Shown in pieces: positions 1-64,000 of a stretch of DNA of 64,000 nt. The translations under genes and the position numbers were made by a program. Numbering within the stretch: position 1 is the stretch's first letter; the number at the start of each line of letters is the position of its first letter. Origin of the DNA: Odiellus spinosus (Eukaryota; Arthropoda; Arachnida; Opiliones; Phalangiidae); the NCBI GenBank assembly GCA_963920705.1, contig OY987230.1:2232001-2296000 (forward strand), given 5' to 3'. The notes beneath the pieces were generated by a model that searched no databases, was not told the DNA's origin, and saw only the letters and a list, made by a program, of their open reading frames with translations.

Positions 1-764
1 GTTGAAAAACATGGAAAATATGGACAATTCAAAAAACATCTAATATCAAAAAGCGAATTTTTAAAATCTAAAATTTGACTATTTTGATATTGTATGATTT
101 CTTGAATTGGCCATATTTTTCTTGTTTTTCAACGGATTTTCCAAAACTATTGTTTTTTAGATAGACCAAAATTTGGTCTTTCTAGTGGTCTTAATTTTGT
201 CTAAATCGCTTAAAATTCAAAAGTTTTGTGTCCATTTGAATCCAATAATCTTGGATTTTTAAGCGTTTTTGCTTAATTTTAACCAATTTTATATTTGTCA
301 CGTTTTGGCAATTTAGACAAAACCAAAGTCATTCGAGAGAGCAATTAATGGACAGTCTAAATAATAAGAGTTTTCAAAAATCCGTTGAAAAACAAGAAAA
401 ATATGGCCAATTCAAGAAATCATAGAATATCAAAATAGTCAAATTTCAGTTTTTCAAAATTCGCTTTTTGATATTAGATGTTTTTTGAATTGTCCATATT
501 TTCCATGTTTTTCAACGGATTTTTGAAAACTCTTATTATTTAAACTGTCCATTAATTGCTCTTTCGAATGACTTTGGTTTTGTATAAATTGCAAAATTGT
601 GACAAATATAAAATTGGTTAAAATTAAGCAAAAACGCTTAAAAATCCAAGATTATTGGATTCATATGGACACAAAACTTTTGATTTTTAAGCGATTTAGA
701 CAAAATTAAGACCACTCGAAAGACCAAATTTTGGTCTATCTAAAAAACAATAGTTTTGGAAAAT

Positions 765-901
765 CCGTTGAAAAACATGGAAAATAAGGCCAATTCAAGA
801 AATCATAGAATATCAAAATAGTCAAATTTCAGATTTTCAAAATTCGCTTTTTGATATTAGATGTTTTTTGAATTGTCCATATTTTCCATGTTTTTCAACG
901 G
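765..901. repeat. Chimeric P with ATGG-type ends on both arms
   Basis: The left end is AACATGGAAAATAAGGCC, an ATGG-type terminus joined to a P- interior, and the right arm ends CCATATTTTCCATG. The centre (ATAGTCAAATTT) marks it as P-. The left end has therefore been replaced over roughly 10-20 bp. A matching chimera at 2680-2816 is its higher-order copy. Confidence 0.8.
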
Positions 902-1103
902 ATTTTTGAAAACTCTTATTATTTAAACTGTCCATTAATTGCTCTTTCGAATGACTTTGGTTTTGTCTAAATTGCAAAATTGTGACAAATATAAAATTGG
1001 TTAAAATTAAGCAAAAACGCTTAAAAATCCAAGATTATTGGATTCAAATGGACACAACACTTTTGATTTTTAAGCGATTTAAACAAAATTAAGACCACTC
1101 AAA

Positions 1104-1120
1104 AGACCAAATTTTGGTCT
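1104..1120. repeat. 17-bp perfect palindrome in the B arm (B1 form)
   Basis: AGACCAAATTTTGGTCT has 8-bp perfect arms around a single central base. It recurs in the B arm of many L cassettes in both orientations. In other monomers it is replaced by the B2 form (GAGCAAATATTGGTCT in L+), which breaks the symmetry and makes the B arm resemble the A arm (GAGCAATTAATGGAC). Such a dyad is a possible protein-binding site, but nothing in the sequence identifies a protein. Confidence 0.8.
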
Positions 1121-1147
1121 ATCTAAAAAACAAGAGTTTTGGAAAAT

Positions 1148-1284
1148 CCGTTGAAAAACATGGAAAATTTGGACAATTCAAAAAACATCTAATATCAAAA
1201 AGCGAATTTTGAAAATCTGAAATTTGACTATTTTGATATTCTATGATTTCTTGAATTGTCCACATTTTTCTTGTTTTTCAACGG
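1148..1284. repeat. Cassette P: 137-bp foldback
   Basis: The cassette begins CCGTTGAAAAAC and ends with the exact inverse GTTTTTCAACGG. The arms are about 56 bp and can be aligned with a few mismatches and one 1-nt gap around an asymmetric spacer of about 24 bp (GAATTTTGAAAATCTG and neighbours). The most diagnostic difference between the arms is ATGG in one and AAGA in the other, next to the terminal 12-mer. Orientation can be scored from these arms or from the spacer. About half of the 167 copies in the window read each way. The terminal inverted sequences resemble a MITE, but the flanks are also mutually inverted and no target-site duplication can be defined, so an origin by transposition is not supported. 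Confidence 0.93.
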
Positions 1285-1530
1285 ATTTTCGAAAACTCTT
1301 ATTATTTAGACTGTCCATTAATTGCTCTTTCGAATGACTTTGGTTTTGTCTAAATTGCAAAATTGTGACAAATATAAAATTGGTTAAAATTAAGCAAAAA
1401 CGCTTAAAAATCCAAGATTATTGGATTCAAATGGACACAAAACTTTTGAATTTTAAGCGATTTAGACAAAATTAAGACCACTCGAAAGAGCAAATATTGG
1501 TCTATCTAAAAAACAATAGTTTTGGAAAAT
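1285..1530. repeat. Cassette L: 246-bp diverged foldback with arms A and B
   Basis: The outer arms, A on the left here and B on the right, are about 73 bp. Over a 51-bp stretch (AGACTGTCC... against the inverse of ...GGTCTATCT) I count 39 matches, about 76%. Both arms keep TTTCGA and TTTTGTCTAAAT. The inner part is not clearly symmetric except at the centre, which holds two adjacent small hairpins. Alternative states recur at fixed sites: GCAAAATTGTGAC or GCCAAAACGTGAC, TTTGAATTTTAAG or TTTGATTTTTAAG, and two forms of the B arm. L occurs in both orientations (86 plus, 81 minus by my count). Confidence 0.92.
1390..1425. repeat. Twin mini-hairpins at the centre of L
   Basis: TTAAGC (1390-1395) pairs with GCTTAA (1402-1407) around a 6-nt loop. 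It is followed at once by TCCAA (1411-1415) and TTGGA (1421-1425) around a 5-nt loop. The pair sits at the dyad centre of L and is conserved in nearly every monomer in either orientation. Departures are rare: an AAAATTGCTT form near 19770, CCAAAACGC forms near 55380, 57294 and 60740, and AATTCAAGATAATTGG near 28971, 30503, 32035 and 48884. Stems this short are weak. Their conservation may only reflect homogenisation of the array. Confidence 0.75.
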
Positions 1531-1915
1531 CCGTAGAAAAACATGGAAAATATGGACAATTCAAAAAACATCTAATATCAAAAAGCGAATTTTGAAAATC
1601 TGAAATTTGACTATTTTGATATTCTATGATTTCTTGAATTGGCCATATTTTTCTTGTTTTTCAACGGATTTTTGAAAACTCTTATTATTTAGACTGTCCA
1701 TTAATTGCTCTTTCGAATGACTTTGGTTTTGGCTAAATTGCAAAATTGTGACAAATATAAAATTGGTTAAAATTAAGCAAAAACGCTTAAAAATCCAAGA
1801 TTATTGGATTCAAATGGACACAAAACTTTTGAATTTTAAGCGATTTAGACAAAATTAAGACCACTCGAAAGACCAAATTTTGGTCTATCTAAAAAACAAG
1901 AGTTTTGGAAAATCC

Positions 1916-3215
1916 GTTGAAAAACATGGAAAATATAGACAATTCAAAAAACATCTAATATCAAAAAGCGAATTTTTAAAATCTGAAATTTGACTATTTT
2001 GATATTGTATGATTTCTTGAATTGGCCATATTTTTCTTGTTTTTCAACGGATTTTCCAAAACTATTGTTTTTTAGATAGACCAAAATTTGGTCTTTCTAG
2101 TGGTCTTAATTTTGTCTAAATCGCTTAAAATTCAAAAGTTTTGTGTCCATTTGAATCCAATAATCTTGGATTTTTAAGCGTTTTTGCTTAATTTTAACCA
2201 ATTTTATATTTGTCACGTTTTGGCAATTTAGACAAAACCAAAGTTATTCGAGAGAGCAATTAATGGACAGTCTAAATAATAAGAGTTTTCAAAAATCCGT
2301 TGAAAAACAAGAAAAATATGGCCAATTCAAGAAATCATAGAATATCAAAATAGTCAAATTTCAGATTTTCAAAATTCGCTTTTTGATATTAGATGTTTTT
2401 TGAATTGTCCATATTTTCCATGTTTTTCAACGGATTTTTGAAAACTCTTATTATTTAAACTGTCCATTAATTGCTCTTTCGAATGACTTTGGTTTTGTAT
2501 AAATTGCAAAATTGAGACAAATATAAAATTGGTTAAAATTAAGCAAAAACGCTTAAAAATCCAAGATTATTGGATTCAAATGGACGCAAAACTTTTGATT
2601 TTTAAGCGATTTAGACAAAATTAAGACCACTCGAAAGACCAAATTTTGGTCTATCTAAAAAACAAGAGTTTTGGAAAATCCGTTGAAAAACATGGAAAAT
2701 AAGGCCAATTCAAGAAATCATAGAATATCAAAATAGTCAAATTTCAGATTTTCAAAATTCGCTTTTTGATATTAGATGTTTTTTGAATTGTCCATATTTT
2801 CCATGTTTTTCAACGGATTTTTGAAAACTCTTATTATTTAAACTGTCCATTAATTGCTCTTTCGAATGAGTTTGGTTTTGTCTAAATTGCAAAATTGTGA
2901 CAAATATAAAATTGGTTAAAATTAAGCAAAAACGCTTAAAAATCCAAGATTATTGGATTCAAATGGACACAACACTTTTGATTTTTAAGCGATTTAGACA
3001 AAATTAAGACCACTCGAAAGACCAAATTTTGGTCTATCTAAAAAACAAGAGTTTTGGAAAATCCGTTGAAAAACATGGAAAATATGGACAATTCAAAAAA
3101 CATCTAATATCAAAAAGCGAATTTTGAAAATCTGAAATTTGACTATTTTGATATTCTATGATTTCTTGAATTGGCCATATTTTTCTTGTTTTTCAACGGA
3201 TTTTTGAAAACTCTT
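1916..3215. repeat. 5-monomer higher-order unit, second copy
   Basis: This is the copy of 1-1300 at an offset of exactly 1915 bp. It shares the private variants listed for that copy and differs by scattered substitutions (for example AAATTGAGAC near 2513 and GGACGCAAAAC near 2582). The fifth monomer is not shared: it is P+L+ in the first unit and P-L- here, so the duplicated tract is about four monomers. Confidence 0.83.
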
Positions 3216-6200
3216 ATTATTTAGACTGTCCATTAATTGCTCTTTCGAATGTCTTTGGTTTTGTCTAAATTGCCAAAACGTGACAAATATAAAATTGGTT
3301 AAAATTAAGCAAAAACGCTTAAAAATCCAAGATTATTGGATTCAAATGGACACAAAACTTTTGAATTTTAAGCGATTTAGACAAAATTAAGACCACTAGA
3401 AAGACCAAATTTTGGTCTATCTAAAGAACAATAGTTTTGGAAAATCCGTTGAAAAACAAGAAAAATATGGCCAATTCAATAAATCATAGAATATCAAAAT
3501 AGTCAAATTTCAGATTTTCAAAATTCGCTTTTTGATATTAGATGTTTTTTGAATTGTCCATATTTTCCATGTTTTTCAACGGATTTTCCAAAACTCTTGA
3601 TTTTCAGATAGACCAATATTTGCTCTTTCGAGTGGTCTTAATTTTGTCTAAATCGCTTAAAAATCAAAAGTTTTGTGTCCATTTGAATCCAATAATCTTG
3701 GATTTTTAAGCGTTTTTGCTTAATTTTAACCAATTTTATATTTGTCACAATTTTGCAATTTAGACAAAAACAAAGTCAATCGAAAGAGCAATTAATGGAC
3801 AGTCTTAATAATAAGAGTTTTCAAAAATCCGTTGAAAAACAAGAAAAATATGGCCAATTCAAAAAACATCTAATATCAAAAAGCGAATTTTGAAAATCTG
3901 AAATTTGACTATTTTGATATTCTATGATTTCTTGAATTGTCCACATTTTTCTTGTTTTTCAACGGATTTTTGAAAACTCTTATTATTTAGACTGTCCATT
4001 AATTGCTCTTTCGAATGACTTTGGTTTTGTCTAAATTGCCAAAACGTGACAAATATAAAATTGGTTAAAATTAAGCAAAAACGCTTAAAAATCCAAGATT
4101 ATTGGATTCAAATGGACACAAAACTTTTGAATTTTAAGCGATTTAGACAAAATTAAGACCACTCGAAAGACCAAATTTTGGTCTATCTAAAAAACAATAG
4201 TTTTGGAAAATCCGTTGAAAAACAAGAAAAATATGGCCAATTCAAGAAATCATACAATATCAAAATAGTCAAATTTCAGATTTTAAAAATTCGCTTTTTG
4301 ATATTAGATGTTTTTTGAATTGTCCATATTTTCCATGTTTTTCAACGGATTTTCCAAAACTCTTGTTTTTTAGATAGACCAAAATTTGGTCTTTCGAGTG
4401 GTCTTAATTTTGTCTAAATCGCTTAAAATTCAAAAGTTTTATGTCCATTTCAATCCAATAATCTTGGATTTTTAAGCGTTTTTGCTTAATTTTAACCAAT
4501 TTTATATTTGTCACGTTTTGGCAATTTAGACAAAACCAAAGTCATTCGAAAGAGCAATTAATGGACAGTCTAAATAATAAGAGTTTTCAAAAATCCGTTG
4601 AAAAACAAGAAAAATATGGCCAATTCAAGAAATCATAGAATATCAAAATAGTCAAATTTCAGATTTTCAAAATTCGCTTTTTGATATTAGATGTTTTTTG
4701 AATTGTCCATATTTTCCATGTTTTTCAACGGATTTTCCAAAACTCTTGTTTTTTAGATAGACCAAAATTTGGTCTTTTGAGTGGTCTTAATTTTGTCTAA
4801 ATCGCTAAAAATCAAAAGTTTTGTGTCCATTTGAATCCAATAATCTTGGATTTTTAAGCGTTTTTGCTTAATTTTAACCAATTTTATATTTGTCACAATT
4901 TTGCAATTTAGACAAAACCAAAGTCATTCGAAAGAGCAATTAATGGACAGTTTAAATAATAAGAGTTTTCAAAAATCCGTTGAAAAACATGGAAAATATG
5001 GACAATTCAAAAAACATCTAATATCAAAAAGCGAATTTTGAAAATCTGAAATTTGACTATTTTGATATTCTATGATTTCTTGAATTGGCCATATTTTCCA
5101 TGTTTTTCAACGGATTTTCCAAAACTCTTGTTTTTAAGATAGACCAAAATTTGGTCTTTCGAGTGGTCTTAATTTTGTCTAAATCGCTTAAAAATCAAAA
5201 GTTTTGTGTCCATTTGAATCCAATAATCTTGGATTTTTAAGCGTTTTTGCTTAATTTTAACCAATTTTATATTTGTCACAATTTTGCAATTTAGACAAAA
5301 CCAAAATCATTCGAAAGAGCAATTAATGGACAGTTTAAATAATAAGAGTTTTCAAAAATCCGTTGAAAAACATGGAAAATATGGACAATTCAAAAAACAT
5401 CTAATATCAAAAAGGGAATTTGGAAATCTGAAATTTGACTATTTTGATATTCTATGATTTCTTGAATTGGCCATATTTTTCTTGTTTTTCAACGGATTTT
5501 TGAAAACTCTTATTATTTAGACTGTCCATTAATTGCTCTTTCGAATGACTTTGGTTTTGTCTAAATTGCCAAAAAGTGACAAATATAAAATTGGTTAAAA
5601 TTAAGCAAAAACGCTTAAAAATCCAAGATTATTGGATTCAAATGGACACAAAACTTTTGATTTTTAAGCGATTTAGACAAAATTAAGACCACTCGAAAGA
5701 CCAAATTTTGGTCTATCTAAAAAACAAGAGTTTTGGAAAATCCGTTGAAAAACAAGAAAAATATGGCCAATTCAAGAAATCATACAATATCAAAATAGTC
5801 AAATTTCAGATTTTCAAAATTCGCTTTTTGATATTAGATGTTTTTTGAATTGTCCATATTTTCCATGTTTTTCAACGGATTTTTGAAAACTCTTATTATT
5901 TAAACTGTCCATTAATTGCTCTTTCGAATGACTTTGGTTTTGTCTAAATTACAAAATTGTGACAAATATAAAATTGGTTAAAATTAAGCAAAAACGCTTA
6001 AAAATCCAAGATTATTGGATTCAAATGGACACAAAACTTTTGATTTTTAAGCGATTTAGACAAAATTAAGACCACTCGAAAGCGCAAATATTGGTCTATC
6101 TAAAAAACAAGAGTTTTGGAAAATCCGTTGAAAAACATGGAAAATATGGACAATTCAAAAAACATCTAATATCAAAAAGCGAATTTTGAAAATCTGAAAT

Positions 6201-20236: not shown

Positions 20237-22336
20237 CGAAAGAGCAATTAATGGACAGTCTAAATAATAAGAGTTTTCAAAAATCCGTTGAAAAACAAGA
20301 AAAATATGGCCAATTCAAGAAATCATAGAATATCAAAATAGTCAAATTTCAGATTTTCAAAATTCGCTTTTTGATATTAGATGTTTTTTGAATTGTCCAT
20401 ATTTTCCATGTTTTTCAACGGATTTTTGAAAACTCTTATTATTTAAACCGTCCATTAATTGCTCTTTCGAATGACTTTGGTTTTGTCTAAATTGCAAAAT
20501 TGTGACAAATATAAAATTGGTTAATATTAAGCAAAAACGCTTAAAAATCCAAGATTATTGGATTCAAATGGACACAAAACTTTTGATTTTTAAGCGATTT
20601 AGACAAAATTAAGACCACTCGAAAGACCAAATTTTGGTCTATCTAAAAAACAAGAGTTTTGGAAAATCCGTTGAAAAACATGGAAAATATGGACAATTCA
20701 AAAAACATCAAATATCAAAAAGCGAATTTTGAAAATCTGAAATTTGACTATTTTGATATTCTATGATTTCTTGAATTGGCCATATTTTTCTTGTTTTTCA
20801 ACGGATTTTCCAAAACTATTGTTTTTTAGATAGACCAAAATTTGGTCTTTCGAGTGGTCTTAATTTTGTCTAAATCGCTTAAAATTCAAAAGTTTTGTGT
20901 CCATTTGAATCCAATAATCTTGGATTTTTAAGCGTTTTTGCTTAATTTTAACCAATTTTATATTTGTCACGTTTTGGCAATTTAGACAAAACCAAAGTCA
21001 TTCGAAAGAGCAATTAATGGACAGTTTAAATAATAAGAGTTTTCAAAAATCCGTTGAAAAACAAGAAAAATATGGCCAATTCAAGAAATCATAGAATATC
21101 AAAATAGTCAAATTTCAGATTTTCAAAATTCGCTTTTTGATATTAGATGTTTTTTGAATTGTCCATATTTTCCATGTTTTTCAACGGATTTTCCAAAACT
21201 CTTGTTTTTTAGATAGACCAAAATTTGGTCTTTCGAGTGGTCTTAATTTTGTCTAAATCGCTTAAAAATCAAAAGTTTTGTGTCCATTTGAATCCAATAA
21301 TCTTGGATTTTTAAGCGTTTTTGCTTAATTTTAACCAATTTTATATTTGTCACAATTTTGCAATTTAGACAAAAACAAAGTCATTCGAAAGAGCAATTAA
21401 TGGACAGTCTTAATAATAAGAGTTTTCAAAAATCCGTTGAAAAACAAGAAAAATATGGCCAATTCAAAAAACATCTAATATCAAAAAGCGAATTTTGAAA
21501 ATCTGAAATTTGACTATTTTGATATTCTATGATTTCTTGAATTGTCCACATTTTTCTTGTTTTTCAACGGATTTTTGAAAACTCTTATTATTTAGACTGT
21601 CCATTAATTGCTCTTTCGAATGACTTTGGTTTTGTCTAAATTGCCAAAACGTGACAAATATAAAATTGGTTAAAATTAAGCAAAAACACTTAAAAATCCA
21701 AGATTATTGGATTCAAATGGACACAAAACTTTTGATTTTTAAGCGATTTAGACAAAATTAAGACCACTCGAAAGACCAAATTTTGGTCTATCTAAAAAAC
21801 AATAGTTTTGGAAAATCCGTTGAAAAACAAGAAAAATATGGCCAATTCAAGAAATCATACAATATCAAAATAGTCAAATTTCAGATTTTCAAAATTCGCT
21901 TTTTGATATTAGATGTTTTTTGAATTGGCCATATTTTTCTTGTTTTTCAACGGATTTTTGAAAACTCTTCTTATTAAGACTGTCCATTAATTGCTCTTTC
22001 GAATGACTTTGTTTTTGTCTAAATTGCAAAATTGTGACAAATATAAAATTGGTTAAAATTAAGCAAAAACGCTTAAAAATCCAAGATTATTGGATTCAAA
22101 TGGACACAAAACTTTTGATTTTTAAGCGATTTAGACAAAATTAAGACCACTCGAAAGAGCAAATATTGGTCTATCTGAAAATCAAGAGTTTTGGAAAATC
22201 CGTTGAAAAACATGGAAAATATGGACAATTCAAAAAACATCTAATATCAAAAAGCGAATTTTGAAAATCTGAAATTTGACTATTTTGATATTCTATGATT
22301 TCTTGAATTGGCCATATTTTTCTTGTTTTTCAACGG
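20237..22336. repeat. Mixed monomers between higher-order blocks
   Basis: Five and a half monomers with codes 3,2,4,1,3,2. Two notable members are a P with mostly AAG-type ends at 21434-21570 and a P with two perfectly matching 33-bp ends at 21817-21953. A CTCTTCTTATTAAG variant lies near 21963. There is no gene or unique DNA. Confidence 0.75.
21817..21953. repeat. P cassette with perfect 33-bp terminal inverted repeats
   Basis: Both ends are AAG-type. The first 33 bp, CCGTTGAAAAAC through GGCCAATTCA, are the exact reverse complement of the last 33 bp. The centre is P-. The same perfect 33-bp ends occur at 8423-8559 and 46708-46844 (P+ centres) and at 27178-27314 (P- centre). These have the longest uninterrupted stem I found in the array. 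Confidence 0.82.
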
Positions 22337-25300
22337 ATTTTCCAAAACTATTGTTTTTTAGATAGACCAAAATTTGGTCTTTCGAGTGGTCTTAATTTTG
22401 TCTAAATCGCTTAAAATTCAAAAGTTTTGTGTCCATTTGAATCCAATAATCTTGGATTTTTAAGCGTTTTTGCTTTATTTTAAAAAATTTTATATTTGTC
22501 ACAATTTTGCAATTTAGACAAAACCAAAGTCATTCGAAAGAGCAATTAATGGACAGTCTAAATAATAAGAGTTTTCAAAAATCCGTTGAAAAACAAGAAA
22601 AATATGGGCAATTCAAGAAATCATAGAATATCAAAATAGTCAAATTTCAGATTTTCAAAATTCGCTTTTTGATATTAGATGTTTTTTGAATTGTCCATAT
22701 TTTCCATGTTTTTCAACGGATTTTTGAAAACTCTTATTATTTAAACTGTCCATTAATTGCTCTTTCGAATGACTTTGGTTTTGTCTAAATTGCAAAATTG
22801 TGACAAATATAAAATTGGTTAAAATTAAGCAAAAACGCTTAAAAATCCAAGATTATTGGATTCAAATGGACACAAAACTTTTGATTTTTAAGCGATTTAG
22901 ACAAAATTAAGACCACTCGAAAGAGCAAATTTTGGTCTATCTAAAAAACAAGAGTTTTGGAAAATCCGTTGAAAAACATGGAAAATATGGACAATTCAAA
23001 AAACATCTAATATCAAAAAGCGAATTTTGAAAATCTGAAATTTGACTATTTTGATACTCTATGATTTCTTGAATTGGCCACATTTTTCTTGTTTTTCAAC
23101 GGATTTTTGAAAACTCTTATTATTTAGACTGTCCATTAATTGCTCTTTCGAATGACTTTGGTTTTGTCTAAATTGCCAAAACGTGACAAATATAAAATTG
23201 GTTAAAATTAAGCAAAAACGCTTAAAAATCCAAGATTATTGGATTCAAATGGACACAAAACTTTTGATTTTGAAGCGATTTAGACAAAATTAAGACAACT
23301 CGAAAGAGCAAATATTGGTCTATGTGAAAATCAAGAGTTTTGGAAAATCCGTTGAAAAACATGGAAAATATGGACAATTCAAAAAACATCTAATATCAAA
23401 AAGCGAATTTTGAAAATCTGAAATTTGACTATTTTGATATTCTATGATTTCTTGAATTGGCCATATTTTTCTTGTTTTTCAACGGATTTTCCAAAACTAT
23501 TGTTTTTTAGATAGACCAAAATTTGGTCTTTCGAGTGGTCTTAATTTTGTCTAAATCGCTTAAAATTCAAAAGTTTTGTGTCCATTTGAATCCAATAATC
23601 TTGGATTTTTAAGCGTTTTTGCTTAATTTTAACCAATTTTATATTTGTCACAGTTTTGCAATTTAGACAAAACCAAAGTCATTCGAAAGAGCAATTAATG
23701 GACAGTCTAAATAATAAGAGTTTTCAAAAATCCGTTGAAAAACAAGAAAAATATGGCCAATTCAAGAAATCATAGAATATCAAAATAGTCAAATTTCAGA
23801 TTTTCAAAATTCGCTTTTTGATATTAGATGTTTTTTGAATTGTCCATATTTTCCATGTTTTTCAACGGATTTTCCAAAACTCTTGTTTTTTAGATAGACC
23901 AAAATTTGGTCTTTCGAGTGGTCTTAATTTTGTCTAAATCGCTTAAAAATCAAAAGTTTTGTGTCCATTTGAATCCAATAATCTTGGATTTTTAAGCGTT
24001 TTTGCTTAATTTTAACCAATTTTATATTTGTCACGTTTTGGCAATTTAGTCAAAACCAAAGTCATTCGAAAGAGCAATTAATGGACAGTTTAAATAATAA
24101 GAGTTTTCAAAAATCCGTTGAAAAACATGGAAAATATGGACAATTCAAAAAACATCTAATATCAAAAAGCGAATTTTGAAAATCTGAAATTTGACTATTT
24201 TGATATTCTATGATTTCTTGAATTGGCCATATTTTTCTTGTTTTTCAACGGATTTTTGAAAACTCTTATTATTTAGACTGTCCATTAATTGCTCTTTCGA
24301 ATGACTTTGGTTTTGTCTAAATTGCCAAAACGTGACAAATATAAAATTAGTTAAAATTAAGCAAAAACGCTTAAAAATCCAAGATTATTGGATTCAAATG
24401 GACACAAAACTTTTGAATTTTAAGCGATTTAGACAAAATTAAGACCACTCGAAAGACCAAATTTTGGTCTATCTAAAAAACAATAGTTTTGGAAAATCCG
24501 TTGAAAAACAAGAAAAATATGGCCAATTCAAGAAATCATAGAATATCAAAATAGTCAAATTTCAGATTTTCAAAATTCGCTTTTTGATATTAGATGTTTT
24601 TTGAATTGTCCATATTTTCCATGTTTTTCAACGGATTTTCCAAAACTCTTGTTTTTTAGATAGACCAATATTTGCTCTTTCGAGTGGTCTTAATTTTGTC
24701 TAAATCGCTTAAAATTCAAAAGTTTTGTGTCCATTTGAATCCAATAATCTTGGATTTTTAAGCGTTTTTGCTTAATTTTAACCAATTTTATATTTGTCAC
24801 AATTTTGCAATTTAGACAAAACCAAAGTCATTCGAAAGAGCAATTAATGGACAGTCTAAATCATAAGAGTTTTCAAAAATCCGTTGAAAAACAAGAAAAA
24901 TGTGGACAATTCAAGAAATCATAGAATATCAAAATAGTCAAATTTCAGATTTTCAAAATTCGCTTTTTGATATTAGATGTTTTTTGAATTGGCCATATTT
25001 TTCTTGTTTTTCAACGGATTTTTGAAAACTCTTATTATTAAGACTGTCCATTAATTGCTCTTTCGAATGACTTTGTTTTTGTCTAAATTGCAAAATTGTG
25101 ACAAATATAAAATTGGTTAAAATTAAGCAAAAACGCTTAAAAATCCAAGATTATTGGATTCAAATGGACACAAAACTTTTGATTTTTAAGCGATTTAGAC
25201 AAAATTAAGACCACTCGAAAGAGCAAATATTGGTCTATCTGAAAATCAAGAGTTTTGGAAAATCCGTTGAAAAACATGGAAAATATGGACAATTCAAAAA

Positions 25301-28300
25301 ACATCTAATATCAAAAAGCGAATTTTGAAAATCTGAAATTTGACTATTTTGATATTCTATGATTTCTTGAATTGGCCATATTTTTCTTGTTTTTCAACGG
25401 ATTTTCCAAAACTATTGTTTTTTAGATAGACCAAAATTTGGTCTTTCGAGTGGTCTTAATTTTGTCTAAATCGCTTAAAATTCAAAAGTTTTGTGTCCTT
25501 TTGAATCCAATAATGTTGGATTTTTAAGCGTTTTTGCTTAATTTTAACCAATTTTATATTTGTCACGTTTTGGCAATTTAGACAAAACCAAAGTCATTCG
25601 AAAGAGCAATTAATGGACAGTCTAAATAATAAGAGTTTTCAAAAATCCGTTGAAAAACAAGAAAAATATGGCCAATTCAAGAAATCATAGAATATCAAAA
25701 TAGTCAAATTTCAGATTTTCAAAATTCGCTTTTTGATATTAGATGTTTTTTGAATTGTCCATATTCTCCATGTTTTTCAACGGATTTTCCAAAACTCTTG
25801 TTTTTTAGATAGACCAAAATTTGGTCTTTCGAGTGGTCTTAATTTTGTCTAAATCGCTTAAAATTCAAAAGTTTTGTGTCCATTTGAATCCAATAATCTT
25901 GGATTTTTAAGCGTTTTTGCTTAATTTTAACCAATTTTATATTTGTCACGTTTTGGCAATTTAGTCAAAACCAAAGTCATTCGAAAGAGCAATTAATGGA
26001 CAGTTTAAATAATAAGAGTTTTCAAAAATCCGTTGAAAAACATGGAAAATATGGACAATTCAAAAAGCATCTAATATCAAAAAGCGAATTTTGAAAATCT
26101 GAAATTTGACTATTTTGATATTCTATGATTTCTTGAATTGGCCATATTTTTCTTGATTTTCAACGGATTTTTGAAAACTCTTATTATTTAGACTGTCCAT
26201 TAATTGCTCTTTCGAATGACTATGGTTTTGTCTAAATTGCCAAAACGTGACAAATATAAAATTGGTTAAAATTAAGCAAAAACGCTTAAAAATCCAAGAT
26301 TATTGGATTCAAATGGACACAAAACTTTTGAATTTTAAGCGATTTAGACAAAATTAAGACCACTCGAAAGAGCAAATATTGGTCTATCTAAAGAACAAGA
26401 GTTTTGGAAAATCCGTTGAAAAACATGGAAAATATGGACAATTCAAAAAACATCTAATATCAAAAAGCGAATTTTGAAAATCTGAAATTTGACTATTTTG
26501 ATATTCTATGATTTCTTGAATTGGCCATATTTTTCTTGTTTTTCAACGGATTTTTGAAAACACTTATTATTTAGACTGTCCATTAATTGCTCTTTAGAAT
26601 GACTTTGGTTTTGTCTAAATTGCAAAATTGTGACAAATATAAAATTGGTTAAAATTAAGCAAAAACGCTTAAAAATCCAAGATTATTGGATTCAAATGGA
26701 CACAAAACTTTTGAATTTTAAGCGATTTAGACAAAATTAAGACCACTCGAAAGACCAAATTTTGGTCTATCTAAAAACAATAGTTTTGGAAAATCCGTTG
26801 AAAAACAAGAAAAATATGGCCAATTCAAGAAATCATACAATATCAAAATAGTCAAATTTCAGATTTTAAAAATTCGCTTTTTGATATTAGATGTTTTTTG
26901 AATTGTCCATATTTTCCATGTTTTTCAACGGATTTTCCAAAACTCTTGATTTTCAGATAGACCAATATTTGCTCTTTCGAGTGGTCTTAATTTTGTCTAA
27001 ATCGCTTAAAAATCAAAAGTTTTGTGTCCATTTGAATCCAATTATCTTGGATTTTTAAGCGTTTTTGCTTAATTTTAACCAATTTTATATTTGTCACGTT
27101 TTGGCAATTTAGACAAAACCAAAGTCATTCGAAAGAGCAATTAATGGACAGTCTAAATAATAAGAATTTTCAAAAATCCGTTGAAAAACAAGAAAAATAT
27201 GGCCAATTCAAGAAATCATAGAATATCAAAATAGTCAAATTTCAGATTTTCAAAATTCGCTTTTTGATATTAGATGTTTTTTGAATTGGCCATATTTTTC
27301 TTGTTTTTCAACGGATTTTTGAAAACTCTTATTATTAAGACTGTCCATTAATTGCTCTTTCGAATGACTTTGTTTTTGACTAAATTGCAAAATTGTGACA
27401 AATATAAAATTGGTTAAAATTAAGCAAAAACGCTTAAAAATCCAAGATTATTGGATTCAAATGGACACAAAACTTTTGATTTTTAAGCGATTTAGACAAA
27501 ATTAAGACCACTCGAAAGAGCAAATATTGGTCTATCTGAAAATAAAGAGTTTTGGAAAATCCGTTGAAAAACATGGAAAATATGGACAATTCAAAAAACA
27601 TCTAATATCAAAAAGCGAATTTTGAAAATCTGAAATTTGACTATTTTGATATTCTATGATTTCTTGAATTGGCCATATTTTTCTTGTTTTTCAACGGATT
27701 TTCCAAAACTATTGTTTTTTAGATAGACCAAAATTTGGTCTTTCGAGTGGTCTTAACTTTGTCTAAATAGCTTAAAATTCAAAAGTTTTGTGTCCATTTG
27801 AATCCAATAATCTTGGATTTTTAAGCGTTTTTGCTTAATTTTAACCAATTTTATATTTGTCACGTTTTGGCAATTTAGACAAAACCAAAGTCATTCGAAA
27901 GAGCAATTAATGGACAGTCTAAATAATAAGAGTTTTCAAAAATCCGTTGAAAAACAAGAAAAATATGGCCAATTCAAGAAATCATAGAATATCAAAATAG
28001 TCAAAATTCAGATTTTCAAAATTCGCTTTTTGATTTTAGATGTTTTTTGAATTGCCCATATTTTCCATGTTTTTCAACGGATTTTTGAAAACTCTTATTA
28101 TTAAGACTGTCCATTAATTGCTCTTTCGAATGACTTTGTTTTTGTCTAAATTGCAAAATTGTGACAAATATAAAATTGGTTAAAATTAAGCAAAAACGCT
28201 TAAAAATCCAAGATTATTGGATTCAAATGGACACAAAACTTTTGATTTTTAAGCGATTTAGACAAAATTAAGACCACTCGAAAGAGCAAATATTGCTCTA

Positions 28301-33443: not shown

Positions 33444-36400
33444 TTTTCCAAAACTCTTGATTTTCAGATAGACCAATATTTGCTCTTTCGAGTGGTCTTA
33501 ATTTTGTCTAAATCGCTTAAAAATCAAAAGTTTTGTGTCCATTTGAATCCAATAATCTTGGATTTTTAAGCGTTTTTGCTTAATTTTAACCAATTTTATA
33601 TTTGTCACAATTTTGCAATTTAGACAAAAACAAAGTCATTCGAAAGAGCAATTAATGGACAGTCTTAATAATAAGAGTTTTCAAAAATCCGTTGAAAAAC
33701 AAGAAAAATATGGCCAATTCAAAAAACATCTAATATCAAAAAGCGAATTTTGAAAATCTGAAATTTGACTATTTTGATATTCTATGATTTCTTGAATTGT
33801 CCACATTTTTCTTGTTTTTCAACGGATTTTTGAAAACTCTTATTATTTAGACTGTCCATTAATTGCTCTTTCGAATGACTTTGGTTTTGTCTAAATTGCA
33901 AAATTGTGACAAATATAAAATTGGTTAATATAAAGAAAAAACGCTTAAAAATCCAAGATTATTGGATTCAAATGGACACAAAACTTTTGATTTTTAAGCG
34001 ATTTAGACAAAATTAAGACCACTCGAAAGACCAAATTTTGGTCTATCTAAAAAACAAGAGTTTTGGAAAATCCGTTGAAAAACATGGAAAATATGGACAA
34101 TTCAAAAAACATCTAATATCAAAAAGCGAATTTTGAAAATCTGAAATTTGACTATTTTGATATTCTATGATTTCTTGAATTGTCCACATTTTTCTTGTTT
34201 TTCAACGGATTTTTGAAAACTCTTATTATTTAGACTGTCCATTAATTGCTCTTTCGAATGACTTTGGTTTTGTCTAAATTGCAAAATTGTGACAAATATA
34301 AAATTGGTTAAAATTAAGCAAAAACGCTTAAAAATCCAAGATTATTGGATTCAAATGGACACAAAACTTTTGAATTTTAAGCGATTTAGACAAAATTAAG
34401 ACCACTCGAAAGAGCAAATATTGGTCTATCTAAAGAACAAGAGTTTTGGAAAATCCGTTGAAAAACATGGAAAATATGGACAATTCAAAAAACATCTAAT
34501 ATCAAAAAGCGAATTTTGAAAATCTGAAATTTGACTATTTTGATATTCTATGATTTCTTGAATTGGCCATATTTTTCTTGTTTTTCAACGGATTTTTGAA
34601 AACTCTTATTATTTAGACTGTCCATTAATTGCTCTTTAGAATGACTTTGGTTTTGTCTAAATTGCAAAATTGTGACAAATATAAAATTGGTTAAAATTAA
34701 GCAAAAACGCTTAAAAATCCAAGATTATTGGATTCAAATGGACACAAAACTTTTGAATTTTAAGCGATTTAGACAAAATTAAGACCACTCGAAAGACCAA
34801 ATTTTGGTCTATCTAAAAACAATAGTTTTGGAAAATCCGTTGAAAAACAAGAAAAATATGGCCAATTCAAGAAATCATACAATATCAAAATAGTCAAATT
34901 TCAGATTTTAAAAATTCGCTTTTTGATATTAGATGTTTTTTGAATTGTCCATATTTTCCATGTTTTTCAACGGATTTTCCAAAACTCTTGATTTTCAGAT
35001 AGACCAATATTTGCTCTTTCGAGTGGTCTTAATTTTGTCTAAATCGCTTAAAAATCAAAAGTTTTGTGTCCATTTGAATCCAATTATCTTGGATTTTTAA
35101 GCGTTTTTGCTTAATTTTAACCAATTTTATATTTGTCACAATTTTGCAATTTAGACAAAAACAAAGTCATTCGAAAGAGCAATTAATGGACAGTCTTAAT
35201 AATAAGAGTTTTCAAAAATCCGTTGAAAAACAAGAAAAATATGGCCAATTCAAAAAACATCTAATATCAAAAAGCGAATTTTGAAAATCTGAAATTTGAC
35301 TATTTTGATATTCTATGATTTCTTGAATTGTCCACATTTTTCTTGTTTTTCAACGGATTTTTGAAAACTCTTATTATTTAGACTGTCCATTAATTGCTCT
35401 TTCGAATGACTTTGATTTTGTCTAAATTGCCAAAACGTGACAAATATAAAATTGGTTAAAATTAAGCAAAAACGCTTAAAAATCCAAGATTATTGGATTC
35501 AAATGGACACAAAACTTTTGAATTTTAAGCGATTTAGACAAAATTAAGACCACTCGAAAGACCAAATTTTGGTCTATCTAAAAAACAATAGTTTTGGAAA
35601 ATCCGTTGAAAAGCAAGAAAAATATGGCCAATTCAAGAAATCATACAATATCAAAATAGTCAAATTTCAGATTTTCAAAATTCGCTTTTTGATATTAGAT
35701 GTTTTTTGAATTGTCCATATTTTCCATGTTTTTCAACGGATTTTTGAAAACTCTTATTATTAAGACTGTCCATTAATTGCTCTTTCGAATGACTTTGTTT
35801 TTGTCTAAATTGCAAAATTGTGACAAATATAAAATTGGATAAAATTAAGCAAAAACGCTTAAAAATCCAAGATTATTGGATTCAAATGGACACAAAACTT
35901 TTGATTTTTAAGCGATTTAGACAAAATTAAGACCACACGAAAGAGCAAATATTGATCTATCTGAAAATCACGAGTTTTGGAAAATCCGTTGAAAAACATG
36001 GAAAATATGGACAATTCAAAAAACATCTAATATCAAAAAGCGAATTTTTAAAATCTGAAATTTGACTATTTTGATATTCTATGACTTCTTGAATTGGCCA
36101 TATTTTTCTTGTTTTTCAACGGATTTTCCAAAACTATTGTTTTTTAGATAGACCAAAATTTGGTCTTTCGAGTGGTCTTAATTTTGTCTAAATCGCTTAA
36201 AATTCAAAAGTTTTGTGTCCATTTGAATCCAATAATCTTGGATTTTTAAGCGTTTTTGCTTAATTTTAACCAATTTTATATTTGTCACGTTTTGGCAATT
36301 TAGACAAAACCAAAGTCATTCGAAAGAGCAATTAATGGACAGTCTAAATAATAAGAGTTTTCAAAAATCCGTTGAAAAACAAGAGAAATATGGCCAATTC

Positions 36401-39400
36401 AAGAAATCATAGAATATCAAAATAGTCAAATTTCAGATTTTCAAAATTCGCTTTTTGATATTAGATGTTTTTTGAATTGTCCATATTTTCCATGTTTTTC
36501 AACGGATTTTCCAAAACTCTTGATTTTCAGATAGACCAATATTTGCTCTTTCGAGTGGTCTTACTTTTGTCTAAATCGCTTAAAAATCAAAAGTTTTGTG
36601 TCCATTTGAATCCAATAATCTTGGATTTTTAAGCGTTTTTGCTTAATTTTAACCAATTTTATATTTGTAAAATTTTGAAATTTAGACAAAAACAAAGTCA
36701 TTCGAAAGAGCAATTAATGGACAGTCTTAATAATAAGAGTTTTCAAAAATCCGTTGAAAAACATGGAAAATATGGACAATTCAAAAAACATCTAATATCA
36801 AAAAGCGAATTTTGAAAATCTGAAATTTGACTATTTTGATATTCTATGATTTCTTGAATTGGCCATATTTTTCTTGTTTTTCAACGGATTTTTGAAAACT
36901 CTTATTATTTAGACTGTCCATTAATTGCTCTTTCGAATGACTTTGGTTTTGTCTAAATTGCAAAATTGTGACAAATATAAAATTGGTTAAAATTAAGCAA
37001 AAACGCTTAAAAATCCAAGATTATTGGATTCAAATGGACACAAAACTTTTGAATTTTAAGCGATTTAGACAAAATTAAGACCACTCGAAAGACCAAATTT
37101 TGGTCTATCTAAAAAACAAGAGTTTTGGAAAATCCGTTGAAAAACATGGAAAATATGGACAATTCAAAAAACATCTAATATCAAAAAGCGAATTTTGAAA
37201 ATCTGAAATTTGACTATTTTGATATTCTATGATTTCTTGAATTGGCCATATTTTTCTTGTTTTTCAACGGATTTTTGAAAACTCTTATTATTTAGACTGT
37301 CCATTATTTGCTCTTTAGAATGACTTTGGTTTTGTCTAAATTGCAAAATTGTGACAAATATAAAATTGGTTAAAATTAAGCAAAAACGCTTAAAAATCCA
37401 AGATTATTGGATTCAAATGGACACAAAACTTTTGAATTTTAAGCGATTTAGACAAAATTAAGACCACTCGAAAGACCAAATTTTGGTCTATCTAAAAAAC
37501 AATAGTTTTGGAAAATCCGTTGAAAAACAAGAAAAATATGGCCAATTCAAGAAATCATAGAATATCAAAATAGTCAAATTTCAGATTTTCAAAATTCGCT
37601 TTTTGATATTAGATGTTTTTTGAATTGTCCATATTTTCCATGTTTTTCAACGGATTTTCCAAAACTATTGTTTTTTAGATAGACCAAAATTTGGTCTTTC
37701 GAGTGGTCTTAATTTTGTCTAAATCGCTTAAAATTCAAAAGTTTTGTGTCCATTTGAATCCAATAATCTTGGATTTTTAAGCGTTTTTGCTTAATTTTAA
37801 CCAATTTTATATTTGTCACAATTTTGCAATTTAGACAAAACCAAAGTCATTCGAAAGAGCAATTAATGGACAGTCTAAATAATAAGAGTTTTCAAAAATC
37901 CGTTGAAAAACAAGAAAAATATGGCCAATTCAAGAAATCATAGAATATCAAAATAGTCAAATTTCAGATTTTCAAAATTCGCTTTTTGATATTAGATGTT
38001 TTTTGAATTGTCCATATTTTCCATGTTTTTCAACGGATTTTTGAAAATTCTTATTATTTAAACTGTCCATTAATTGCTCTTTCGAATGACTTTGGTTTTG
38101 TCTAAATTGCAAAATTGTGACAAATATAAAATTGGTTAAAATTAAGCAAAAACGCTTAAAAATCCAAGATTATTGGATTCAAATGGACACAAAACTTTTG
38201 ATTTTTAAGCGATTTAGACAAAATTAAGACCACTCGAAAGACCAAATTTTGGTCTATCTAAAAAACAAGAGTTTTGGAAAATCCGTTGAAAAACATGGAA
38301 AATATGGACAATTCAAAAAACATCTAATATCAAAAAGCGAATTTTGAAAATCTGAAATTTGACTATTTTGATACTCTATGATTTCTTGAATTGGCCACAT
38401 TTTTCTTGTTTTTCAACGGATTTTTGAAAACTCTTATTATTTAGACTGTCCATTAATTGCTCTTTCGAATGACTTTGGTTTTGTCTAAATTGCCAAAACG
38501 TGACAAATATAAAATTGGTTAAAATTAAGCAAAAACGCTTAAAAATCCAAGATTATTGGATTCAAATGGACACAAAACTTTTGATTTTGAAGCGATTTAG
38601 ACAAAATTAAGACAACTCGAAAGAGCAAATATTGGTCTATGTGAAAATCAAGAGTTTTGGAAAATCCGTTGAAAAACATGGAAAATATGGACAATTCAAA
38701 AAACATCTAATATCAAAAAGCGAATTTTGAAAATCTGAAATTTGACTATTTTGATATTCTATGATTTCTTGAATTGGCCATATTTTTCTTGTTTTTCAAC
38801 GGATTTTCCAAAACTATTGTTTTTTAGATAGACCAAAATTTGGTCTTTCGAGTGGTCTTAATTTTGTCTAAATCGCTTAAAATTCAAAAGTTTTGTGTCC
38901 ATTTGAATCCAATAATCTTGGATTTTTAAGCGTTTTTGCTTAATTTTAACCAATTTTATATTTGTCACAGTTTTGCAATTTAGACAAAACCAAAGTCATT
39001 CGAAAGAGCAATTAATGGACAGTCTAAATAATAAGAGTTTTCAAAAATCCGTTGAAAAACAAGAAAAATATGGCCAATTCAAGAAATCATAGAATATCAA
39101 AATAGTCAAATTTCAGATTTTCAAAATTCGCTTTTTGATATTAGATGTTTTTTGAATTGTCCATATTTTCCATGTTTTTCAACGGATTTTCCAAAACTCT
39201 TGTTTTTTAGATAGACCAAAATTTGGTCTTTCGAGTGGTCTTAATTTTGTCTAAATCGCTTAAAAATCAAAAGTTTTGTGTCCATTTGAATCCAATAATC
39301 TTGGATTTTTAAGCGTTTTTGCTTAATTTTAACCAATTTTATATTTGTCACGTTTTGGCAATTTAGTCAAAACCAAAGTCATTCGAAAGAGCAATTAATG

Positions 39401-42400: not shown

Positions 42401-42467
42401 TTTATATTTGTCACGTTTTGGCAATTTAGACAAAACCAAAGTCATTCGAAAGAGCAATTAATGGACA

Positions 42468-60108: not shown

Positions 60109-63100
60109 CCGTTGAAAAACAAGAAAAATATGGCCAATTCAAGAAATCATAGAATATCAAAATAGTCAAATTTCAGATTTTCAAAATTCGCTTTTTGATA
60201 TTAGATGTTTTTTGAATTGTCCATATTTTCCATGTTTTTCAACGGATTTTCCAAAACTCTTGTTTTTTAGATAGACCAAAATTTGGTCTTTCGAGTGGTC
60301 TTAATTTTGTCTAAATCGCTTAAAATTCAAAAGTTTTGTGTCCATTTGAATCCAATAATCTTGGATTTTTAAGCGTTTTTGCTTAATTTTAACCAATTTT
60401 ATATTTGTCACAATTTTGCAATTTAGACAAAACCAAAGTCATTCGAAAGAGCAATTAATGGACAGTCTAAATAATAAGAGTTTTCAAAAATCCGTTGAAA
60501 AACATGGAAAATATGGACAATTCAAAAAACATCTAATATCAAAAAGCGAATTTTGAAAATCTGAAATTTGACTATTTTGATATTCTATGATTTCTTGAAT
60601 TGGCCATATTTTTCTTGTTTTTCAACGGATTTTTGAAAACTCTTATTATTTAGACTGTCCATTAATTGCTCTTTCGAATGACTTTGGTTTTGTCTAAATT
60701 GCAAAATTGTGACAAATATAAAATTGGTTAAAATTAAGCCAAAACGCTTAAAAATCCAAGATTATTGGATTCAAATGGACACAAAACTTTTGAATTTTAA
60801 GCGATTTAGACAAAATTAAGACCACTCGAAAGACCAAATTATGGTCTATCCAAAAAACAATAGTTTTGGAAAATCCGTTGAAAAACAAGAAAAATATGGC
60901 CAATTCAAGAAATCATACAATATCAAAATAGTCAAATTTCAGATTTTCAAAATTCGCTTTTTGATATTAGATGTTTTTTGAATTGTCCATATTTTCCATG
61001 TTTTTCAACGGATTTTCCAAAACTCTTGTTTTTTAGATAGACCAATATTTGCTCTTTCGAGTGGTCTTAATTTTGTCTAAATCGCTTAAAATTCAAAAGT
61101 TTTGTGTCCATTTGAATCCAATAATCTTGGATTTTTAAGCGTTTTTGCTTAATTTTAACCAATTTTATATTTGTCACAATTTTGCAATTTAGACAAAACC
61201 AAAGTCATTCGAAAGAGCAATTAATGGACAGTCTAAATAATAAGAGTTTTCAAAAATCCGTTGAAAAACAAGAAAAATGTGGACAATTCAAGAAATCATA
61301 GAATATCAAAATAGTCAAATTTCAGATTTTCAAAATTCGCTTTTTGATATTAGATGTTTTTTGAATTGGCCATATTTTTCTTGTTTTTCAACGAATTTTT
61401 GAAAACTCTTATTATTAAGACTGTCCATTAATTGCTCTTTCGAATGACTTTGTTTTTGTCTAAATTGCAAAATTGTGACAAATATAAAATTGGTTAAAAT
61501 TAAGCAAAAACGCTTAAAAATCCAAGATTATTGGATTCAAATGGACACAAAACTTTTGATTTTTAAGCGATTTAGACAAAATTAAGACCACTCGAAAGAG
61601 CAAATATTGGTCTATCTGAAAATCAAGAGTTTTGGAAATCCCGTTGAAATACAAGAAAAATATGGCCAATTCAAGAAATCATAGAATATCAAAATAGTCA
61701 AATTTCAGATTTTCAAAATTCGCTTTTTGATATTAGATGTTTTTTGAATTGTCCATATTTTCCATGTTTTTCAACGGATTTTCCAAAACTCTTGTTTTTT
61801 AGATAGACCAAAATTTGGTCTTTCGAGTGGTCTTAATTTTGTCCTAATCGCTTAAAAATCAAAAGTTTTGTGTCCATTTGAATCCAATAATCTTGGATTT
61901 TTAAGCGTTTTTGCTTAATTTTAACCAATTTTATATTTGTCACAATTTTGCAATTTAGACAAAACCAAAGTCATTCGAAAGAGCAATTAATGGACAGTTT
62001 AAATAATAAGAGTTTTCAAAAATCCTTTGAAAAACATGGAAAATATGGACAATTCAAAAAACATCTAATATCAAAAAGCGAATTTTGAAAATCTGAAATT
62101 TGACTATTTTGATATTGTATGATTTCTTGAATTGGCCATATTTTTCTTGTTTTTCAACGGATTTTCCAAAACTATTGTTTTTTAGATAGACCAAAATTTG
62201 GTCTTTCGAGTGGTCTTAATTTTGTCTAAATCGCTTAAAATTCAAAAGTTTTGTGTCCATTTGAATCCAATAATCTTGGATTTTTAAGCGTTTTTGCTTA
62301 ATTTTTACCAATTTTATATTTGTCACGTTTTGGCAATTTAGACAAAACCAAAGTCATTCGAAAGAGCAATTAATGGACAGTCTAAATAATAAGATTTTTC
62401 AAAAATCCGTTGAAAAACAAGAAAAATATGGCCAATTCAAGAAATCATAGAATATCAAAATAGTCAAATTTCAGATTTTCAAAATTCGCTTTTTGATATT
62501 AGATGTTTTTTGAATTGTCCATATTTTCCATGTTTTTTCAACGGATTTTCCAAAACTCTTGTTTTTTAGATAGACCAAAATTTGGTCTTTCGAGTGGTCT
62601 TAATTTTGTCTAAATCGCTTTAAAATCAAAAGTTTTGTGTCCATTTGAATCCAATAATCTTGGATTTTTAAGCGTTTTTGCTTAATTTTAACCAATTTTA
62701 TATTTGTCACAATTTTGCAATTTAGACAAAACAAAGTCATTCGAAAGAGCAATTAATGGACAGTTTAAATAATAAGAGTTTTCAAAAATCCGTTGAAAAA
62801 CATGGAAAATATGGACAATTCAAAAAACATCTAATATCAAAAAGCGAATTTTGAAAATCTGAAATTTGACTATTTTGATATTCTATGATTTCTTGAATTG
62901 GCCATATTTTTCTTGTTTTTCAACGGATTTTCCAAAACTATTGTTTTTTAGATAGACCAAAATTTGGTCTTTCGAGTGGTCATAATTTTGTCTAAATCGC
63001 TTAAAATTCAAAAGTTTTGTGTCCATTTGAATCCAATAATCTTGGATTTTTAAGCGTTTTTGCTTAATTTTAACCAATTTTATATTTGTCACAATTTTGC

Positions 63101-63506
63101 AATTTAGACAAAACCAAAGTCATTCGAAAGAGCAATTAATGGACAGTCTAAATAATAAGAGTTTTCAAAAATCCGTTGAAAAACAAGAAAAATGTGGACA
63201 ATTCAAGAAATCATAGAATATCAAAATAGTCAAATTTCAGATTTTCAAAATTCGCTTTTTGATATTAGATGTTTTTTGAATTGGCCATATTTTTCTTGTT
63301 TTTCAACGGATTTTTGAAAACTCTTATTATTAAGACTATCCATTAATTGCTCTTTCGAATGACTTTGTTTTTGTCTAAATTGCAAAATTGTGACAAATAT
63401 AAAATTGGTTAAAATTAAGCAAAAACGCTTAAAAATCCAAGATTATTGGATTCAAATGGACACAAAACTTTTGATTTTTAAGCGATTTAGACAAAATTAA
63501 GACCAC
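60109..63506. repeat. 9-monomer higher-order unit, copy 2
   Basis: Same orientation codes and rare variants as copy 1. The offset becomes 3447 bp after an extra T in CCATGTTTTTTCAACGG near 62530. The rare ACTATCC variant also recurs (59889 and 63336). The match ends near 63506, where GAGCAAATATTGTTC replaces GACCAAATTTTGGTC, so the last L belongs to a different lineage. Confidence 0.88.
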
Positions 63507-64000
63507 TCGAAAGAGCAAATATTGTTCTATCTGAAAATCAAGAGTTTTGGAAAATCCGTTGAAAAACATGGAAAATATGGACAATTCAAAAAACATCTAA
63601 TATCAAAGAGCGAATTTTTAAAATCTGAAATTTGACTATTTAGATATTGTATGATTTCTAGAATTGGCCATATTTTTCTTGTTTTTCAACGGATTTTCCA
63701 AAACTATTGTTTTTTAGATAGACCAAAATTTGGTCTTTCGAGTGGTCTTAATTTTGTCTAAATCGCTTAAAATTCAAAAGTTTTGTGTCCATTTGAATCC
63801 AATAATCTTGGATTTTTAAGCGTTTTTGCTTAATTTTAACCAATTTTATATTTGTCACGTTTTGGCAATTTAGACAAAACCAAAGTCATTCGAAAGAGCA
63901 ATTAATGGACAGTCTAAATAATAAGAGTTTTCAAAAATCCGTTGAAAAACATGGAAAATATGGACAATTCAAAAAACATCTAATATCAAAGAGCGAATTT
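63507..64000. repeat. Array continues to the window edge
   Basis: The end of one L, one monomer of code 2 and a 60-bp partial P+. The rare TATCAAAGAGCG occurs twice here (about 63601 and 63982) and nowhere else that I noticed, which suggests that another local duplication begins near the window edge. There is no transition to non-satellite DNA. Confidence 0.8.

Follow-up and report, generated by a model that had tools for sequence, protein, structure and literature searches.

Satellites whose monomers contain inverted segments have been described before. In Tribolium madens, the abundant macro-dyad satellites TmSat1 and TmSat2 are described as containing subunits in both orientations and intra-monomer dyads (PMC13081366), and the same article cites a 385-bp satellite of Trichogramma brassicae with 80-bp inverted repeats and a 1061-bp satellite of Tribolium brevicornis with inverted segments of about 470 bp. 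For Drosophila virilis, the account of the foldback transposon Tetris gives terminal inverted repeats (TIRs) of up to 1,735 bp, tandem subrepeats and target duplications of 8-9 bp, and reports that monomers of the TIR-220 satellite are common to Tetris and to long arrays (PMC4079207). Here we describe a 383-bp satellite of Odiellus spinosus which fills a stretch of 64,000 nucleotides of contig OY987230.1 (C6:2232001-2296000 in the one assembly analysed, GCA_963920705.1, 443 Mb; hereafter the window). Its monomer is made of two adjacent cassettes, P and L, and each of them lies in either orientation. We propose that this mosaic probably arose by strand-blind exchange between cassettes framed by mirror-image P's, rather than by flipping of single cassettes in place.

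The whole window is a single satellite array (1..64000, no strand assigned) with a period of 383 bp, present in 166.5 copies across positions 1-63763. There are two alternating dyad centres per period, 191.5 bp apart, as found by a dyad scan of the first ~10 kb and by tracking of the centres through the whole window. Each of the 167 P and 167 L units was compared with the consensus of its kind in both orientations. The resulting calls were unambiguous: edit distances for the two orientations differed by at least 17 of 71 bases for P's and by at least 48 of 120 for L's. We counted 83 P+ and 84 P-, 86 L+ and 81 L-, and the four combinations of P and L orientation occurred 45, 42, 41 and 39 times. 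An earlier, sequence-only reading of this DNA had given the same near-equal numbers, with the P sign swapped relative to ours. It had also claimed that the 383-bp phase is kept despite the mosaic, and this was confirmed: the spacing of centres is exactly 383 bp in 149 of 166 P steps and in 139 of 166 L steps. Near-even counts were obtained as well for the contiguous 264 kb made up of the window and 100 kb on each side (695 P, 339/356; 687 L, 317/370), where only 8 steps among 1,382 units are irregular. The irregular spots are of two repeated kinds, with P+ and P- either 136 bp apart (three times) or 80 bp apart (five times) and no L between them; they lie at C6:2348057-2349232 (stretch L028) and C6:2367612-2373379 (stretch L030).

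The orientations along the array are non-random. Adjacent P's share orientation in 30.1% of 694 steps and adjacent L's in 38.6% of 686 steps, while at lags 2 to 16 the values are 48-54% and 49-57%, respectively; orientation thus alternates beyond chance only between direct neighbours. Instability of neighbours in direct orientation would be one guess at the cause. The array has the single monomer length (383 bp) and the long tandem course (264 kb continuous) of classic satellite DNA. The head-to-tail order of classic satellite monomers is absent from the window and is found in two stretches of another contig, C5, described below.

The unit is composed of a 39-bp arm A, a P loop of about 70 bp, the inverted arm A' and a 236-bp L loop. 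We mapped orientation signals over 322 of the 333 half-junctions, namely those of length 192, leaving out 11 of other lengths. Bases at offsets 0-34 from the P centre follow P orientation, those at offsets 74-191 follow L orientation, and between them, at offsets 56-73, no orientation signal exceeds 0.08 bit. Partial P signals persist at offsets 43, 53 and 55, and weak mixed ones (P up to 0.17 bit) occur at offsets 82, 86, 91, 93, 127 and 149. Arm A' is thus directly seen as the switch zone between P-following and L-following bases. In an example unit, delimited by the junction map and, for the arms, by sequence as well, the left arm A (39 bp, offsets 35-73) lies at 377..415 on the - strand and contains a 17-bp core, AAAATCCGTTGAAAAAC. 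It is followed on the + strand by the P loop (416..484), whose bases track P orientation, by the right arm A' (485..523) with the core GTTTTTCAACGGATTTT at its end (507-523), and by the L loop (524..759), whose bases track L orientation apart from a few weak P signals near the arm. Folded as single DNA strands, one P example gave a strong structure (-29.1 kcal/mol, z -8.5) and one L example a weak one (z -3.7). At 10-bp resolution, the bins containing the core show somewhat lower diversity than average (0.018 vs 0.025 at the P end, 0.014 vs 0.029 at the L start), and several further bins are less diverse still. A CENP-B-box-like reading of the core was entertained and dropped.

Absolute orientation is not a lineage. 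For distances we used a wider set of 1,535 units (773 P, 762 L), all turned to one strand, in which pairs of identical units, and likewise haplotypes, are mutually non-independent. L's differ on average by 7.779 when in the same orientation and by 7.804 when in opposite ones, and for P's the means are 3.279 and 3.315. On a tree of the window's 167 L's, which is blurred by recombination inside L, absolute orientation needs at least 33 changes (200 shuffles: mean 51.2, minimum 43), so that the many orientation changes claimed earlier withstood the tree count, which did not reduce them to one or two ancestral flips. On the same tree, the state of the left P junction changes 10 times and that of the right one 15 times, compared with about 50 after shuffling. 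Junction states follow sequence, and the independence of P and L in orientation that had been supposed is not supported; relative P-L orientation is mostly inherited along with the sequence. Haplotypes found in both orientations (32 of 131 repeated ones for L, 83.8 expected; 25 of 76 for P, 51.5 expected) are fewer than in a random mixture because block copies share orientation.

It was tempting to take concordance of relative orientation as a disproof of in-place L flips, as the next P agrees for 0.85-0.90 of identical L's and for 0.47-0.50 of those with 7-9 differences. We rejected this argument, because the relative state would be the same before and after an L flip between mirror-image P's, and relied as tests on L's in direct frames and on the order in which the next L's follow, which alone discriminate. 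L's flanked by P's of opposite orientation were called inverted-framed (525 of 761), the remaining 236 direct-framed. In inverted frames, all 94 repeated L haplotypes are confined to a single frame (34.7 expected if free), and in direct frames 38 of 41 keep a single relative orientation (13.8 expected); for the window alone these numbers are 28 of 28 and 9 of 10. Counted as pairs of identical L's, all 1,240 inverted-frame pairs share their frame, although 521 of them are in opposite and 719 in the same absolute orientation. If L's flipped freely in place, both relative orientations should be about equally frequent among identical direct-frame L's, yet 248 of 263 pairs keep it and only 15 cross. 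Tandem block copies inflate these counts, and after removal of pairs that belong to runs of 4 or more matching cassettes we obtained 174 same and 15 crossed in direct frames and 1,009 and 0 in inverted ones. P haplotypes keep their frame in 35 of 39 and 31 of 35 cases in the two frame tests, and rare ones (at most 8 copies) in 31 of 33 and 31 of 31.

This frame-bound inheritance is directly visible in the L's themselves. Read in the L+ frame, the 761 L's comprise 267 of type X (P- L P+), 258 of type Y (P+ L P-), 161 "--" and 75 "++". X and Y, together 525 of 761, are separated by linked single-nucleotide polymorphisms (SNPs), for example at column 236, with 0.56 bit on the right junction, and by their sequence the "--" and "++" L's look like half-and-half, left/right recombinants of X and Y. 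The near-equal counts thus hide four linked L subtypes with inherited frames (94/94, 38/41), and the free four-way combination of orientations proposed earlier is not supported.

A second line of evidence comes from neighbours. Among 1,708 pairs of identical L's more than 20 cassettes apart, both P junctions are kept in 1,286, one in 407 and neither in 15. The L beyond the P matches on 484 of 2,708 sides where the junction is kept (background 0.031) and on 0 of 427 sides where it differs; no in-place P flip was thus seen by this next-L test on the 427 sides with a changed junction. As the next L never matches there, changed junctions look like the ends of exchanged tracts and not like flipped P's. 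In addition, of 894 comparisons between identical inverted-framed L's that are more than 20 cassettes apart and in opposite orientation, 112 show a matching next L in reversed order and 11 in direct order; for same-orientation pairs the values are 25 and 228 of 1,137. At the level of haplotypes (all frames), both orientations are represented among copies more than 20 cassettes apart in 30 L haplotypes, and a reversed-order neighbour match is found for 26 of these 30 and for 4 of 71 same-orientation haplotypes.

Traceable reversals mostly move blocks, whose copies are reverse complements. We counted 280 runs of 4 or more matching cassettes in direct and 186 in reverse-complement order, while two control arrangements yielded 0 and 0. 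Runs of at least 8, compared pairwise among the 1,535 units, number 48 and 8, so the caution voiced earlier that higher-order copies are not independent samples was well placed. Within the window, a 30-cassette block at 31395..37137 (+ strand) has a head-to-tail copy at 48244-53986, and a 25-cassette block at 22333..27181 (+ strand) has one at 37650-42498, both with identical internal orientations. Positions 1..4215 (no strand assigned) hold most of a 23-cassette run which starts 252 bp left of the window and recurs, reverse-complemented, about 0.5 Mb off on the same contig (L035:5249-9715). Orientation strings of 14 to 30 cassettes recur elsewhere, direct and reversed, on contigs C6, C112 and C138.

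Recent block copies differ by two clean changes of a single cassette, both in L's that lie between mirror-image P's. With 4 strictly matching cassettes on each side, we found no P flip in 138 comparisons (121 direct, 17 reversed) and L flips in 2 of 111, both involving unit 1019. This unit differs from units 1037 and 1069 at 8 positions within flanks of 6 to 16 cassettes and is a replacement by a different L; unit 957, compared with 1011 and 1061 between looser flanks, is a replacement too (7 differences). L 1299 is flipped relative to L 1309 with its private variant kept (2 differences; flanks of 10 and 11 cassettes). The two lie within a 10-cassette tandem repeat and fall outside the strict count as an adjoining P differs by 2; a possible donor, 4 to 6 kb away, is unit 1331, whose L has the sequence of 1299 but the opposite orientation. 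The changes at 1019, 957 and 1299 are all directly seen in inverted frames, although 69% of L's are inverted-framed anyway. Zero-difference flips in reversed context (966/994, 1291/1301, 647/727) have offsets inside direct runs and were judged side effects of head-to-tail copies, as was, inferred from the local 10-cassette repeat, a five-cassette block flip (1292/1316).

Relatives of the satellite occur elsewhere in the genome. Exact matches to the core number 65,172 forward and 63,717 reverse (backward control 0), which, at two cores per monomer, would imply roughly 64,000 monomers or about 25 Mb. A cousin array on C5 was covered over 12 kb, in stretches C5:1812001-1820000 (L036, 8 kb) and C5:1834001-1838000 (L037). 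Both are strictly head-to-tail P-L+ (20/20 P and 21/21 L; 10/10 and 10/10), with no orientation flip in these 12 kb despite the same arms. L036 is about 84% identical to the consensus and has the core intact on both strands, which rules out loss of one arm as the cause of its head-to-tail order. Foldback arms alone therefore do not cause flipping. The role assigned to the inverted arms in the sequence-only reading is thus upheld in one part, since the sharp switch points do fall in the arms, but the arms are not sufficient.

On contig C1, part of the satellite resides in a foldback transposon of 4,862 bp (C1:33019596-33024457; L038-L040), recognized by its inverted repeats, subrepeats and target duplication. 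Its TIRs are 1,751 and 1,754 bp long, 99.3% identical, and contain 149-bp subrepeats. The 9-bp target duplication GACCTTCTC abuts both ends and is found nowhere else on the + strand of the 7 kb around this one copy. The element directly shows a short mirror-symmetric satellite array inside it, and a mirror-symmetric satellite copy arranged as on C1 lies at C2:8466501-8470500 (L041, 4 kb). All P-L pairs of the C5 stretches are P-L+, as are those of the C1 and C2 copies except at the mirror point, and the L's of these relatives are about 1% nearer to the right-junction "-" consensus (94.0% vs 92.8% for L038). Further short dispersed copies were indicated by pattern matches alone at C1:1800197, C2:2549907, C3:23306527 and C4:19303365. 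By eye, a short hairpin-like insert of unrelated sequence was seen in L038 between the first P+ and the next L-. Apart from the satellite, several places on the nuclear contig C17 (L010-L012) carry COX1-like pieces, which are probably nuclear copies of mitochondrial DNA. The translated mitochondrial COI has an arthropod appearance and was read as probably insect.

How could such a mosaic be formed? The explanation we consider best, and probable, is strand-blind ectopic exchange framed by P cassettes and most likely seeded by a foldback element. An L is often flanked by P cassettes (129 bp with most of the arms) that are inverted repeats of each other. Ectopic exchange (gene conversion, crossing over or repair by copying from elsewhere in the array; this pathway we infer) would use P as its homology. 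When the flanking P's mirror each other, the two strands would be indistinguishable, and a donor L or a whole block could enter either way round. Repeated exchanges would scramble absolute orientation down to single cassettes, and the 383-bp phase would be kept because switches occur at homologous arms. Relative P-L orientation would change less often and be mostly inherited, and L's would therefore evolve as frame-bound subfamilies. The first inverted copies were probably supplied by a foldback transposon with the satellite in its mirror-image arms, although the direction from transposon to satellite is itself our surmise. More tentatively, we suggest a wider statement, which may well prove too broad: mirror framing makes repair strand-blind, so that concerted evolution is partitioned by frame, with X and Y pools that hardly mix, whereas absolute orientation drifts to equilibrium from a foldback start.

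The process proposed in the sequence-only reading was that each cassette flips alone and in place, by crossing over of the short inverted arms, cruciform resolution or template switching. Near-equal orientation counts, the strong P fold beside the weak L fold, the flipped L 1299/1309 with its private variant, and the looser candidates between flanks of at least 3 cassettes (19 direct-order, 10 reversed-order) would all suit it. As a general rule it is nevertheless ruled out by the frame and neighbour-order tests, and taken as a whole we regard it as unlikely: identical direct-frame L's cross in only 15 of 263 pairs, direct-order neighbours are seen in only 11 of 894 comparisons, nothing matches beyond a relatively flipped P (0/427), junction states change 10 and 15 times and not about 50, strict flanks hold 0 P flips in 138 comparisons, and the arm-bearing C5 stretches do not flip. 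What may survive of it is a minor route for L's lying between mirror-image P's. An equally doubtful alternative is that a few ancient inversions made the four junction types, which were then spread by ordinary copying and unequal exchange. On one hand, this agrees with junction states being tied to linked SNPs such as column 236, and with P-L+ in the C5, C1 and C2 copies, whose L's lean towards the right-junction "-" consensus. On the other hand, it fits relative but not absolute orientation, as the at least 33 absolute changes on the L tree and the 30 haplotypes found in both orientations more than 20 cassettes apart mean that reversal went on recently.

The orientation pattern is known from the assembly alone, and in so large a satellite family reads from oppositely oriented arrays might have been joined. 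We find such an artefact very improbable, as strings of 14 to 30 cassettes recur in both directions on three contigs, irregular steps are only 8 among 1,382 units, and one would hardly expect misjoins to follow L haplotype and frame (94/94). In a bacterial shufflon, several segments lie between inverted sites, each in either orientation, and a site-specific recombinase acting at the 17-bp core could be imagined here in the same manner, since the sharp switch zone contains the core and the core bins are somewhat less diverse than average. This seems to us the least credible of the alternatives. The core is intact on both strands in the unflipped stretch L036, several other bins are less diverse than the core bins, and block moves and replacements fit homology-driven exchange. 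Moreover, free in-place inversion of each segment, as in a shufflon, was not what we found (94/94, 38/41, 0/427; one L may be a flip), and, unlike in a shufflon, relative orientation is mostly inherited.

Several observations weigh against strand-blind exchange as well. The alternation of neighbours at lag 1 is left unexplained by it. For identical L's in opposite orientation, the neighbours match in neither order in most comparisons, so that the pathway itself is unseen there, and 6 of the 30 opposite-orientation haplotypes (all frames) show a direct-order match. Identical L's are split between one inverted and one direct frame in 417 of 1,920 pairs, and one junction therefore does change fairly often. 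Common P haplotypes are present in every frame, with identical P's crossing in 1,859 of 6,739 direct-frame pairs and lying in opposite frames in 5,949 of 13,414 inverted-frame pairs. Only 21 of the 94 inverted-frame L haplotypes are found both ways round, where free orientation would give 59.3; this is so because tandem copies share orientation. For recent single-cassette changes the frame rule is not significant by itself, as the clean events number two or three, and L 1299/1309, the best candidate, may be a true in-place inversion. Moreover, 4 longer gaps (3, 3, 6 and 7 cassettes) of 16 gap events hold orientation changes of two or more cassettes, P's included, and a P (2 differences) is among the candidates between the looser flanks.

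If the wider statement suggested above is true, a frame-partitioned satellite of drifting orientation, started by a foldback transposon, would be a distinct mode of satellite evolution. Links are being drawn between inverted satellites and centromere identity as well as genome instability. The genome analysed here contains what appear to be three stages of one satellite, namely a foldback element, a head-to-tail array and an orientation-scrambled array. Cassette variants suffice to trace copying, which makes inverted-repeat exchange in heterochromatin measurable from sequence alone, and direct versus inverted frames provide a built-in control.

A literature search over titles and abstract openings, with most subscription journals outside it, turned up no description of half-monomers in independent orientation. 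The satellites TmSat1 and TmSat2 of T. madens, as described, share several traits with ours: their subunits lie either way round, dyads occur within the monomer, and the arrays change orientation (PMC13081366). In T. madens, orientation shifts between kilobase subarrays, with two predominant inversion types in TmSat1 (PMC13081366). Unlike there, the satellite of O. spinosus switches at half-monomer boundaries throughout with the phase kept. In place of kilobase-long stretches of uniform orientation that join at conserved inversion sites, we find that 70% of 694 P steps and 61% of 686 L steps lead to a neighbour of the other orientation. The satellites of T. brassicae, similar in monomer length, and T. 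brevicornis have inverted arms within the monomer as here, a likeness drawn from their description, and the passage that cites them mentions no orientation mosaic (PMC13081366). The C1 element is likened to Tetris in kind, by features rather than by sequence (PMC4079207): it has TIRs of about 1.75 kb with tandem subrepeats, a target-site duplication of 9 bp and a satellite common to the element and to arrays. Unlike Tetris and TIR-220 as described (PMC4079207), the unit carried here is a 383-bp double foldback which, in the large arrays, is scrambled in orientation.

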